Positions 825-4,936 of a stretch of DNA of 44,842 nt are shown here, in pieces. How positions within the stretch are numbered: the first letter of the stretch is position 1; each line of letters begins with the position of its first letter. The translations under genes and the position numbers were made by a program. This stretch comes from a virus. Where the stretch lies: positions 1 through 44,842 of IMG/VR virus record IMGVR_UViG_3300009087_000004; one strand, 5' to 3'. A model generated the notes under the pieces. The model was not told the DNA's origin. It was given only the letters and a program-made list of their open reading frames with translations, and ran no database searches.

Positions 825-3111
825 TACCATTTCAGGGTTTAAAGGTATTAATCCCAAGCCTGTTGCTACAATTACATGGCAAAAGGTGTTGGATCATATC
901 AGGTCAGACAAGTATAAAGCCTCAATAAATTCAGTCCGCAATATTATCTCAAAACATGGTGTAAAGTCAGAAGAATATAAAAAAGCAAAGTGCAATCTTC
1001 CTGGCATCACGTTTGGAGGTACATTCTCACACAGAGCAAATGCCAAAATTATCCAGCCCACCGGATTCATTATACCGGACATGGATAACATACCTCAACA
1101 AGTTAGAAATCTATTTAACTTATTAATCCAAGATACGAATATATGGTTTGTTTTTCGTTCTCCATCTAATGAGGGGCTTAAAGTTGGGGTCCGTGCAGAG
1201 AATATCTCGAATGACGAAGATCATAAACTGTTTTATACGGCAGTTGAAGAGTATTTCAAGGAACTTTACGGTATTGAGATAGACACAGCCTGCAAGGATA
1301 TATCACGCCTTACTTTCGTTTCGCATGATCCTGAACTATGGATCAACCCTCAGCCTCAGTTTTTTAATATCAAACAATGGACTGACATTATTCCAAGCCC
1401 ACCTGAACCTGTTTATTGCCCGATTAATGGCAATGGTGGAAAGGGCCAGGAAAAATATGCAAGGAAAGTTCTTGAATCCTGTTGCAGAAAATTACTGGAG
1501 TGTCCAAAAGGGAATAAGCACATAACCCGTCTCAAACAATCAAGATTGATTGGCGGTTATCTCCAGTGGTTGGACGAGGGGGAAGTTTTGTCTATGTTCG
1601 AACAAGCCATAATTGCAAGCGGAACTCCGAATATATCTCAGGCTATGAAGACAGTAAAGAACGGAATTGAGTATGGCAGGGTATTGCCTATTGAGTTAGA
1701 AGACCTTAACAGGTATGATGATGAACGTAAAATCAGCGTTTCAGGCGATATTTTAAATGACAGTAATGACATAGAACAAAAAAGAATGACAGTAATGACA
1801 GCACATGACAGGGACATGACAGTTGAAGACAAAAGAATGACAGTTGAGCCAAAAAGAATGACAGCAATGACAGTTGAAAAAACTGTGGGAAATCAAAATC
1901 TGGCTGACGACATTCACGCTTTCCTTAGAACCGCTAAGGGTTCATTCACTGTTGAAAGTCTTGACCGGGAATTAAATCTGACAACCCGGAGCCATCGTCA
2001 GCAACGCTCCTATATATTACTTAAGTATATTAATAATAAATATAAGAATAAGAATAATAATATTACTTTAAAGAAAGATCCTATTAAGAACAATGTTTAT
2101 CATATTATCCCAACTGAGGTTGACTGGATTGATTTATCCCTCCCAACTGAAGAAAGTTTCCCTATAAGACTGCCATTCGATCTTGATAAGAAAATCTCAA
2201 TCCCACCCAAATCAATCATCATTGTGGCAGGAACGACCAATAGTGCCAAAACTGCCATTATGCTAAATACACTGAGACTGAATATTAATTCCCAGTTTGA
2301 GAAACTGTTTCTCGTCTCGGAAGGTGCTGGTGAAATCAAGGGCAGAATAAAATCTTTTGGTGATCCGGTTGATTTCTGGAAAGACAATATCATGATTGCT
2401 TCACAGTCTGATAACTTTGATACTGTTATTGAGAATTACAATACTGACGGGCTGACTTGTATTGACTACCTCGAACCAACCGAGGGGCAATATTATATGC
2501 TTACGAGCCAGATAAGAGATATTTATGACTGCCTCAAGACTGGGGTTGCTATGATAGCTTTGCAGAAGAAATCAAACCAGACAATGGGACGTGGGGGCGA
2601 AGGTACGGCAGAGAAGGCCAGGCTCTATATGACTGTGGATTATCTCTGTGCGTGTCAAAGGGGCGTTGTGTGTGCGGTTGCACTGACGAAAGTAAAACAG
2701 TCTATTGACGAGACTATGCAGGGTAAGGAACTCCATTTCAGGCTTGAGCATGGCTCTAAGATTACTCCGCTTACTGACTGGATGTTTTCGAGCAGGGTAA
2801 ACAGGGATAAGTGTATCAGGGATTACGAAAATGATGATCTTGCCAAATCCTATAAAAAAGCTGAAGAGGATGATTTTATTTTCAGGGCCAAGAATGGTAA
2901 CGGTGCTTTCAGGAAAGTCAGGATAACCAGAAAACAGGCTGAGGAATGGGCAGAGAATATGCCTTACATTGATGTTTTTACCAGACTGGAACAAATAGCG
3001 GCTGATTCAATGCAGAGAGATTTCCTGCATGATAGATATATTTTTCAGATACCAGCTATTCTCAGCAAAGAAAACGAAACAGCATCTTGTGGCATGGGAG
3101 AATCAGGATGA
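814..3111 (+). CDS. Replication protein: PrimPol-like (VirE_N/BT4734-like) primase fused to a RecA-like ATPase
   Basis: The 765-residue protein has two recognisable halves. Residues about 60-185 resemble the VirE_N/BT4734-like domain, a branch of the archaeo-eukaryotic primase fold. It shows a DxD pair (D89, D91), an SPSNEGLKV stretch (116-124) and a DISRLTFVSHDP stretch (162-173). Residues about 455-650 form a RecA/DnaB-like ATPase with Walker A GTTNSAKT (473-480) and a Walker B-like TCIDYLEP near 547. The linker around residues 315-353 is repetitive (MTV units) because of DNA repeats described separately. It probably primes and unwinds phage DNA. The start overlaps the preceding HNH gene, and its TGA overlaps an ATG at 3108. 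The domain names are my pattern recognition. Confidence 0.75.
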   Translation: MPNNTISGFKGINPKPVATITWQKVLDHIRSDKYKASINSVRNIISKHGVKSEEYKKAKCNLPGITFGGTFSHRANAKIIQPTGFIIPDMDNIPQQVRNLFNLLIQDTNIWFVFRSPSNEGLKVGVRAENISNDEDHKLFYTAVEEYFKELYGIEIDTACKDISRLTFVSHDPELWINPQPQFFNIKQWTDIIPSPPEPVYCPINGNGGKGQEKYARKVLESCCRKLLECPKGNKHITRLKQSRLIGGYLQWLDEGEVLSMFEQAIIASGTPNISQAMKTVKNGIEYGRVLPIELEDLNRYDDERKISVSGDILNDSNDIEQKRMTVMTAHDRDMTVEDKRMTVEPKRMTAMTVEKTVGNQNLADDIHAFLRTAKGSFTVESLDRELNLTTRSHRQQRSYILLKYINNKYKNKNNNITLKKDPIKNNVYHIIPTEVDWIDLSLPTEESFPIRLPFDLDKKISIPPKSIIIVAGTTNSAKTAIMLNTLRLNINSQFEKLFLVSEGAGEIKGRIKSFGDPVDFWKDNIMIASQSDNFDTVIENYNTDGLTCIDYLEPTEGQYYMLTSQIRDIYDCLKTGVAMIALQKKSNQTMGRGGEGTAEKARLYMTVDYLCACQRGVVCAVALTKVKQSIDETMQGKELHFRLEHGSKITPLTDWMFSSRVNRDKCIRDYENDDLAKSYKKAEEDDFIFRAKNGNGAFRKVRITRKQAEEWAENMPYIDVFTRLEQIAADSMQRDFLHDRYIFQIPAILSKENETASCGMGESG
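1757..1872 (+). repeat. Iteron-like array of nine ATGACA repeats inside the primase gene
   Basis: ATGACA starts at 1757, 1766, 1786, 1795, 1805, 1816, 1837, 1858 and 1867. The spacings are 9, 20, 9, 10, 11, 21, 21 and 9 bases, close to one or two helical turns. Most copies extend to ATGACAGT or ATGACAGC. Three copies (1757, 1766, 1805) are in a different codon phase from the other six, so the repeat is kept at DNA level, not only as a peptide repeat. AT-rich sequence follows at 2020-2070. This matches what replication iterons look like. Confidence 0.55.
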
Positions 3112-3155
3112 GTATTAAACTTTACAAATTAGCAGTAAGGAGGTTTGGAGAATGA
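3108..3155 (+). pseudogene. 15-codon ORF, duplicated 5' end of the methyltransferase gene
   Basis: The ATG overlaps the primase stop (ATGA) and the TGA overlaps the next ATG (ATGA again). Its first six residues (MSIKLY) are the same as those after the methyltransferase TTG start at 3452. It also carries the AAGGAGG ribosome site of the following gene. It looks like the original methyltransferase start, cut off by insertion of the 3152-3376 gene. It may still be translated as a coupling peptide. Confidence 0.5.
3109..3125 (+). repeat. 17-nt direct repeat, left copy
   Basis: TGAGTATTAAACTTTAC here is identical to 3453-3469, 344 bases downstream. The pair flanks the 74-residue gene and marks the start of the methyltransferase. 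Confidence 0.8.
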
Positions 3156-3376
3156 AAAACAGTAAAGATGTTGAAACTGCCAGTGCCCCGGCGGTCGGGT
3201 GTGAAATGCCTTGTTATGTGGCTATACTTGACCATACCGATCAGGTTGGCTTTGACCAGTCATTTACATTTAGAGAGGCAAAACCTCTTACCGGGAGGGA
3301 AACGGTTAATGATCTTATGGTATGGGGAAAACAGTGGATGAAAAAACCCCAAATTATGGTTGTCCTTGCCACATGA
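3152..3376 (+). CDS. Hypothetical protein, 74 aa, probable inserted gene
   Basis: The ORF begins 7 bases after a strong AAGGAGG site and overlaps the preceding mini-ORF by four bases. The protein has two cysteines near residues 17 and 21, an acidic middle and a C-terminal WGKQWMKKP stretch. I recognise no family. It is bounded by the 17-nt direct repeats at 3109 and 3453, which suggests that it was inserted between the primase and the methyltransferase, or can be lost by recombination between the repeats. Confidence 0.5.
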   Translation: MKNSKDVETASAPAVGCEMPCYVAILDHTDQVGFDQSFTFREAKPLTGRETVNDLMVWGKQWMKKPQIMVVLAT

Positions 3377-3451
3377 CAAGTTTGTGGGTTGATTGGCTGT
3401 TACAGCGATATGAATACAAGAAAGCAAGGGAAAGGAAACTGGAGGCATAAG

Positions 3452-4936
3452 TTGAGTATTAAACTTTACCAAGGTGATGCACTTACAGTCCTAAAGACAT
3501 TAGCTGCTGGGAGTGTTCAGTGTTGTGTAACCAGCCCTCCGTATTGGGGGCTTAGGGATTATGGCATTGAAGGGCAGATTGGTCTTGAACCAACGCCTGA
3601 ATTATACGTTGAACATCTTGTTGAGATATTCAGAGAAGTAAAACGGGTATTGAAAAAAGATGGAACTTTTTGGCTTAATTTAGGGGATAGTTATGCAGGA
3701 AGCTGTAAGGGGGAAGGTGGAATTTATGAACTATCTAAGAAGCAGAACTCAAATCGTGGTTCTCATTATGGGAAAGATAATGGAATAATTCATAAATTTG
3801 ATAGTGGTCTTAAACCAAAAGACCTCGTAGGCATACCTTGGCGTGTAGCGTTAGCTTTGCAAGCGGACGGTTGGTGGTTACGGCAGGACATCATCTGGGC
3901 GAAAGGAAATCCTATGCCAGAATCAGTTTGTGACAGAAACACAAAATCACACGAATACATTTTTTTGTTGACAAAAAGCCCCCGATATTATTATGATAAT
4001 ATTGCAATTCAAGAAAGGGCTGGTGGCTGTAATGACAAAGAAATGCAATACCTGCAAGCTGATTTTACCGATAGAGAACTTTTACAAAAACAATCAGCAG
4101 AGGGACGGACTGTGTGGCCGGTGTGCCGACTGTACAAAAATAGCGAGAAAGAAATACGACCAGAAATACAACAAAACGGAAAAGGCAAAAGCGAACGCCA
4201 AGAGATATTATTATTCGGAGAAGGGGCAGAAAAAAAAGAAGGAATATCGGGAAAATTACGAACTGACCTTGGAACAAAAAGAGAAATATCGTCTGGCGAT
4301 GAGAAAACACGAGAAGGAAGAAAAATACAAGAATCGCCGGAAGAAATACGATTTATCAGAGAAAGGGAAAACAATGAAAGCGGGGCGGGATGCCCGTTAT
4401 TTTGTAACTCCGAAAGGCCGTATGGCGAAAAAACGCATAGAGAAGAAAAGGAAATTCTGTCTTGCCAGTACGCAATGCACATTAACCTTAGCGGAATGGG
4501 AGGACATCAAAAAGAAATACGGATACCTCTGTGCTTATTGCCACAAACCAAAGAAATTAGAAATGGATCATGTAATTCCGTTGACGAAAGGCGGACACCA
4601 TACCAAAGCGAATGTAGTTCCTTCCTGCCGAACCTGCAACGCCAAGAAAAACAATCGTCTTTTAGAAATCGCCGTAGTGTCTGGCACATAAATACTCGCG
4701 CTTTTAAATCCGCCCACTTTGCCACATTTCCTCCTGAGCTTCCAGAAATTTGTATCAAGGCAGGAAGTAGAAGGAATGATATCATTCTTGATCCCTTTTC
4801 AGGTGCAGGGACAACTGGACTTGTAGCAAACAGGCTGGGCCGTCAATATATTGGGATAGAATTGAACTCCGAATATATAGAGATGAGCAAAAAACGTATT
4901 TATGATGATGCGCCATTATTTTATCAGGAGGCATAA
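3452..4936 (+). CDS. DNA methyltransferase (N4/N6, beta class) with a roughly 215-residue insertion
   Basis: A TTG start is chosen because GGAGG lies 6 bases upstream and the protein then begins SIKLYQGDALTVL, typical of the family. Motif IV is TSPPYW (residues 27-32), and the SAM-binding motif I DPFSGAGTT starts at residue 447. This IV-before-I order defines the beta class. The SPPY form favours N4-cytosine but does not prove it. Relatives are about 280-300 residues; this one is 494. The excess lies between YYYDNIAIQE (ending near 4020) and RNRRSVW (from 4664), the target-recognition region. There a complete HNH gene occupies another frame while the methyltransferase frame stays open. The product may be an unusual long enzyme or an inactive one. 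It probably protects phage DNA from restriction. Confidence 0.8.
   Translation: MSIKLYQGDALTVLKTLAAGSVQCCVTSPPYWGLRDYGIEGQIGLEPTPELYVEHLVEIFREVKRVLKKDGTFWLNLGDSYAGSCKGEGGIYELSKKQNSNRGSHYGKDNGIIHKFDSGLKPKDLVGIPWRVALALQADGWWLRQDIIWAKGNPMPESVCDRNTKSHEYIFLLTKSPRYYYDNIAIQERAGGCNDKEMQYLQADFTDRELLQKQSAEGRTVWPVCRLYKNSEKEIRPEIQQNGKGKSERQEILLFGEGAEKKEGISGKLRTDLGTKREISSGDEKTREGRKIQESPEEIRFIRERENNESGAGCPLFCNSERPYGEKTHREEKEILSCQYAMHINLSGMGGHQKEIRIPLCLLPQTKEIRNGSCNSVDERRTPYQSECSSFLPNLQRQEKQSSFRNRRSVWHINTRAFKSAHFATFPPELPEICIKAGSRRNDIILDPFSGAGTTGLVANRLGRQYIGIELNSEYIEMSKKRIYDDAPLFYQEA
3453..3469 (+). repeat. 17-nt direct repeat, right copy
   Basis: This copy is identical to 3109-3125 and lies just after the first base of the methyltransferase TTG start. 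Confidence 0.8.
4032..4691 (+). CDS. HNH endonuclease nested out of frame in the methyltransferase gene
   Basis: This 219-residue protein is very lysine-rich. The N-terminus has CNTC near residue 4 and CGRCADC near residue 27, a zinc-binding pattern. The middle is a long basic helical stretch of KKYD/KKR repeats, likely DNA-binding. The C-terminus is a classical HNH nuclease: LCAYC, MDHVIPLTKGG, NVVPSCRTCNAKK. It lies entirely within the methyltransferase ORF in a different frame, and its last 9 codons overlap the conserved RRSVW region of the methyltransferase. The ATG at 4032 is preferred over an upstream ATG at 3993 because the zinc motif follows directly. The context suggests a homing endonuclease whose target is an uninterrupted methyltransferase gene. 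Confidence 0.8.
   Translation: MTKKCNTCKLILPIENFYKNNQQRDGLCGRCADCTKIARKKYDQKYNKTEKAKANAKRYYYSEKGQKKKKEYRENYELTLEQKEKYRLAMRKHEKEEKYKNRRKKYDLSEKGKTMKAGRDARYFVTPKGRMAKKRIEKKRKFCLASTQCTLTLAEWEDIKKKYGYLCAYCHKPKKLEMDHVIPLTKGGHHTKANVVPSCRTCNAKKNNRLLEIAVVSGT

Follow-up and report, generated by a model that had tools for sequence, protein, structure and literature searches.

An out-of-frame HNH endonuclease gene nested within a phage DNA methyltransferase gene, with codon-level evidence for selection on both reading frames

The closest described system is the ShiLan domain, reported in 2025 from methylases of mycobacteriophages. There, an HNH endonuclease is encoded out of frame within the methylase gene, the methylase frame is free of stop codons and no splicing signals are present (PMC11855218). 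Related cases are Pacc40 gp60 and Applejack gp54/gp55 (PMC12613952). A homing insertion of another type is mobE in nrdA of Aeromonas phage Aeh1, a split-gene arrangement in which the host function is kept (PMC2988022).

Here we analysed a window of 44,842 nucleotides, the whole stretch of viral DNA in IMG/VR record IMGVR_UViG_3300009087_000004. The ShiLan arrangement has several features in common with the window: a complete HNH gene is concealed in another frame of a phage DNA methylase gene, the methylase frame has no stop codon, neither an intron nor an intein was found, the methylase-frame loop is predicted to be disordered and the distribution is patchy. The arrangement is therefore already known in kind, and in this broad sense (HNH gene contained entirely within a methylase gene but in a different frame, without stops and without a detected intron or intein) the window is ShiLan-like. 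However, the hidden HNH of ShiLan lies at +2 (nucleotides 1725–2318 of the gp65 gene), whereas that of the window lies at +1. In tblastn, nested HNH queries gave no significant match to ShiLan gp65, and the gp65 methylase matches the methyltransferase (MTase) of the window over short stretches only. The HNH of the window further differs in having an ATG with a Shine-Dalgarno-like site and a measured codon selection. With its different HNH family, opposite relative frame and other MTase subfamily, the window thus works like a ShiLan element without being a member of the ShiLan domain proper. The HNH family and the variant are new here, as is the strong codon-level evidence for selection on both frames. 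Like nrdA of Aeh1, the window has an HNH gene in the gene of a conserved phage enzyme; the host gene of Aeh1 gives two polypeptides, whereas that of the window stays one ORF by dual coding (PMC2988022).

The methyltransferase gene and the nested HNH gene

The DNA methyltransferase gene (3452–4936, + strand) runs from a TTG start at 3452 to a stop codon at 4934–4936 and encodes 494 residues. A Shine-Dalgarno-like GGAGG is seen in the sequence 5' of the start (3441–3445, +). The Pfam scan gave PF01555 (E = 7.5e-53) over residues 22–481, with the halves of the domain flanking an extra segment. The catalytic motif TSPPYW (3530–3547, +) is intact on one side of the insert and the SAM binding motif DPFSGAGTT (4790–4816, +) on the other, where the original frame is resumed; the order SPPY then DPFxGxG places the protein among the N6_N4_Mtase enzymes. 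This order and the conserved core are common to the orphan methyltransferases of phages (PF01555, phrog_67), and empty-site relatives of this kind are roughly 50–68% identical to the MTase of the window. Unlike these, it contains ~215 extra residues which double as an HNH gene.

The extra MTase-frame segment (4020–4663, +) corresponds to the HNH coding sequence in the +1 frame. The spacing between the YYYD and RRSVW blocks is ~224 aa in the window versus ~13–57 aa in uninterrupted relatives, so that a long product is the simplest reading, as in the original prediction of an MTase with about 215 additional residues. The proposed comparison with uninterrupted relatives gave approximate insertion ends (those of the segment above) and not exact ones. 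A natural MTase domain was considered for the extra segment and rejected: in one relative (L267) this place holds a long natural segment that gives no meaningful HNH match in any frame. The MTase site therefore tolerates length, but the segment of the window is an HNH gene.

This HNH endonuclease gene (4032–4691, +) lies, as had been predicted, wholly inside the MTase gene in another frame, at an offset of +1. Its 660 nucleotides, from ATG at 4032 to TAA at 4689–4691, encode 219 residues. The protein matched PF01844 (E = 7.5e-12), phrog_1035 (‘endonuclease VII’) along almost its entire length and, in a PDB profile search, the HNH endonuclease 4h9d (E = 4.7e-17). This Gme HNH nicking endonuclease and the HNH domains of McrA and Cas9 proteins are the closest solved relatives. 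The N-terminal part (4044–4133, +) contains a CxxC...CxxC zinc finger with invariant C5, C8, C31 and C34, and in the catalytic domain (4530–4658, +) C167, C170, D179, H180, N194, C199, C202 and N203 are conserved; the metal/zinc-binding and catalytic residues of an HNH nuclease (PF01844) are thus present. The final HNH codons and the stop (4664–4691, +) are an out-of-frame reading of the conserved MTase stretch RNRRSVWHIN, which supplies the last ~eight codons plus the stop. The same zinc finger and HNH core occur in free-standing phage HNH proteins such as Lactococcus phi31 ORF4 and Streptomyces phage TunaTartare gp203 (annotated as HNH endonuclease or endonuclease VII), which are 28–35% identical to the HNH of the window. 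Their genes stand between other genes and have 12–36 stops in the frame that the window keeps open.

A Shine-Dalgarno-like GGTGG (4022–4026, +) precedes the HNH ATG by five bases, with an upstream duplex energy of −6.6, among the best 5% of sampled window sites. Judged by the sequences of relatives, 3452 and 4032 appear to be better starts than the nominal, longer ones of the ORF list (3389 for the MTase, 3993 for the HNH). AlphaFold2 models of the MTase, calculated with nine sequences, had pLDDT values of 85–97 over much of the core and ~30 at residues 218–402, so the MTase-frame reading of the insert is probably disordered. The HNH model had a pLDDT of 90.5, and its confidence dropped at the last codons.

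Codon usage in the shared segment

Across the 660 nucleotides of the HNH gene, the MTase frame contains no stop codon, as had been reported, versus 17 in the other forward frame. The original prediction had estimated the chance of such an open frame as roughly 4 in 100,000. That estimate assumed equal base use. None of 200,000 synonymous shuffles preserving both the protein and the codon set of the HNH was open, and the mean number of MTase-frame stops was 12.6. Given the HNH protein and the codon usage of its gene, which is itself already depleted, the exact probability of an open frame is 10^-6.8.

At the +1 offset, the sole route to an MTase-frame stop is a T in the third codon position before a codon starting with AA, AG or GA. 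Such a T was found in 0/86 cases versus 39/133 elsewhere in the HNH gene (p = 4.6e-10), or 39/132 when the HNH stop codon was left out (0/86, p = 4.5e-10). When only positions followed by a codon with an initial A or G were compared, T was present in none of the 86 positions before AA, AG or GA, versus 14/56 before AC, AT, GC, GG or GT (p = 7e-7). Since T is tolerated before the latter, the depletion does not reflect T|A or T|G being avoided in general. A comparable T depletion was found neither in eight large genes of the window nor in four free-standing HNH relatives. For selection keeping both readings open, which had been suspected from the open frame, codon usage gives support in the window and independent support in nine further loci with the same HNH family (see below).

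Conservation of the MTase-frame amino acids in the insert was considered and rejected for the window and its closest nested relative (L186): their likeness was not above the expectation from the HNH protein plus stop avoidance (z = 1.2). At such a distance, selection therefore looks like ‘stay open’ and not like ‘keep a folded domain’. MTase-frame residue conservation was higher in some pairs, for example L107/L192, which may reflect unsaturated synonymous sites.

In the available part of the ShiLan report, the open frame is not put to a statistical test (PMC11855218). For ShiLan gp65 we expect only 2.3 stops and obtain a probability of 0.015 for an open frame, so that its openness alone is weak evidence. 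To our knowledge, such an open frame has had no earlier codon-level test. What could be described as ‘no stop happens to occur’ becomes measured selection on both readings.

Related loci, insertion sites and distribution

A first scan of viral contigs with the HNH only found no nested relative. A DNA pattern that linked the end of the HNH to the restart of the MTase, and took no account of the frame between them, identified L102, whose HNH is 56% identical to that of the window, and L103. Profile scans of both viral contigs and genome contigs contributed L037/L231, L107 (on a contig binned as Nitrospiraceae), L189, L192/L193, L201/L202, L203 and L208. In all ten distinct loci including the window, which are phage or prophage, the HNH lies at +1 and the MTase frame has no stop, versus ~71 stops expected from synonymous shuffling. 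The stop-creating T, pooled over the ten loci, occurred in 0/626 cases versus 272/1401 elsewhere (p = 3e-48), and 84 free-standing HNH relatives were without such bias (1108/4649 versus 2634/10096). The published cases are from mycobacteriophages, whereas the set assembled here includes lower-GC loci, in which openness is decisive; for some GC-rich nested relatives only about three stops are expected.

The first listing of loci had partly been chosen by openness. A second listing took all HNH matches flanked by MTase pieces, with no filter for openness, and gave 11 distinct loci, of which 10 were open and one was split. In the split locus (L188, 48–2988), an HNH of the same clade divides the MTase into two ORFs and each junction is an ATGA overlap, which parallels mobE in nrdA of Aeh1 (PMC2988022). 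The MTase of L188 also carries an intein, recognised by eye, at the IIWHK / SNPMPESV site, an MTase site other than that of the window.

Four MTase positions are occupied by the HNH insertion, as assigned by eye: the YYYD/RRSVW loop in the window, L102 and L103, the MPESV/KSHEY loop in L107, L189, L192 and L201, the zinc-ribbon loop in L037 and L203, and a position just past the NYW block in L208. The insertions at the MPESV site share similar DNA (ATCGAGTTACAATCGAAGA-like, weakest in L189) ~25 bases before the HNH start. ATCGAGTTACAATCGAAGA-like DNA directly 5' of the HNH ATG is a candidate for part of the recognition site. In the MTase of L231, which is on the same contig as L037, the TSPP-Y catalytic motif contains an in-frame TAA together with ~nine additional bases (~1668–1790); this may reflect a pseudogene, an assembly error or recoding.

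The ten nested HNHs belong to one clade of 17 (support 90/95), in which they are grouped largely by insertion site with free-standing genes interspersed, so that several insertions or exits are needed. Insert-bearing MTases are scattered among empty ones, with nine changes, six of them forced by well-supported branches. The HNH of the window is sister to that of L186 (100/96), whereas its MTase groups with the empty-site L268/L003 and the MTase of L186 belongs to a supported group of otherwise empty MTases. This disagreement between the trees suggests that the HNH moves between MTases. As no inserted/empty pair more than 80% identical was found, we infer the exact insertion ends and also homing, the latter from the scattered presence and the conflict between HNH and MTase trees. 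Among named phages, all HNH matches were below 60% identity and none among the matches listed was taken as the same element; the window itself is absent from the named-phage collection searched.

Origin of the arrangement and its occurrence in other families

We consider it very likely that a mobile, probably homing HNH gene is expressed from an internal AUG within a dual-coded segment which is also an unspliced loop of the MTase. The HNH gene would have invaded a phage MTase gene at the variable target-recognition loop and would now share its DNA. In the MTase frame, ~215 stop-free and probably disordered residues would be placed between two intact lobes, and the long MTase would be made without splicing. 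Initiation at the internal AUG (4032), one base later, would give a complete zinc-finger HNH endonuclease from the same DNA, and purifying selection would purge synonymous changes that bring in a stop. During mixed infection, the HNH most likely cleaves or nicks MTase alleles that lack the insert, and it would spread by recombination. We infer that both proteins are expressed and that the long form has MTase activity.

Chance or composition as the source of the open frame has a practically negligible probability and was rejected by several nulls. The A-rich, T-poor HNH and the few stops expected in some GC-rich relatives do raise the odds of an open frame, but the exact probability with the gene's own codon usage, the T depletion in the window and in the pooled loci, and the lack of avoidance of the control dinucleotides all speak against it. 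Openness also bears on a very improbable alternative, an unrecognised self-splicing intron or translational bypass element that carries the HNH and restores a short MTase at the RNA or ribosome level. Phage group I introns commonly host HNH genes (PMC11855218, PMC2988022), and the insert is placed between conserved MTase blocks. Yet an intron needs no open MTase frame, whereas the 10 unsplit loci show strong selection for openness, and nearly the whole insert codes for the HNH, leaving little room for an intron core. Rfam gave no match in the window at the gathering score, apart from two sub-threshold matches to unrelated families, and no relevant match even at a relaxed threshold. With no intron core structure recognised by Rfam, a group I or II intron was rejected, in agreement with the original prediction. 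Known translational bypassing hops span tens of bases, which counts against the bypass reading. The Pfam family scan of the MTase protein detected no intein family, and the model has no confident fold in the insert.

A +1 ribosomal frameshift that yielded the HNH fused to the N-terminal lobe of the MTase would fit the +1 offset common to all ten loci and the scarcity of good ribosome-binding sites, as a strong Shine-Dalgarno sequence precedes the HNH in only 2/10 loci (the window and L198). However, a Met is found shortly before the first zinc-finger CxxC in 10/10 loci, and the closed HNH frame 6 nucleotides 5' of this Met in L189 and L208 leaves almost no room for a shift and favours internal initiation; the published ShiLan HNH, moreover, is in the other frame. 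We regard frameshifting as improbable. It is unlikely, too, that the MTase is no longer functional and that its frame is open only against polarity or non-stop problems, or as a recent, ready-open cassette. The lack of residue conservation beyond expectation between the window and L186 is consistent with a dead enzyme, as is the stop in the catalytic motif of one relative (L037/L231). On the other hand, both lobes of the window's MTase are conserved, including the catalytic and SAM motifs, the cores model confidently, and the frame is still open in HNHs which have diverged to 26–57% identity.

With the dual-coded, unspliced loop as the preferred reading, the arrangement is now found in a second HNH family, in the other relative frame and at four insertion positions, and the split gene of L188 represents an alternative outcome. 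The uniform +1 offset across four positions of one family indicates that the element may move as a ready-open cassette. Persistence of a homing gene without splicing becomes a directly testable question. Nucleases of this kind will escape gene finders that remove overlapping ORFs.

Scanning from the MTase side yielded 80 MTase loci. In two of these phage MTases (L281, 3471–3941; L344, ~2704–3165) a hidden HNH of an unrelated family (VHHxNGxxxDNRIENL) lies at +1, and the MTase frames contain no stops versus 7.2 and 4.9 expected. Two further unrelated HNHs (L104/L105) came from a GAC variant of the pattern for the HNH end and MTase restart. Besides introns and inteins, dual coding may be a third general means by which homing genes reside inside conserved coding sequence, a proposal for which we see the case as evenly balanced: at least two unrelated HNH families would have settled repeatedly in phage MTase loops, with all host-frame stops purged, the element being both an unspliced translated linker and a nuclease gene.

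Four loci (L297, L313, L328 and L337) have a second downstream ORF with the MTase C-terminal motif and represent tandem or split MTases. The window itself contains a second, ordinary HNH-type ORF (432–824, +) directly 5' of a primase/helicase-like gene.
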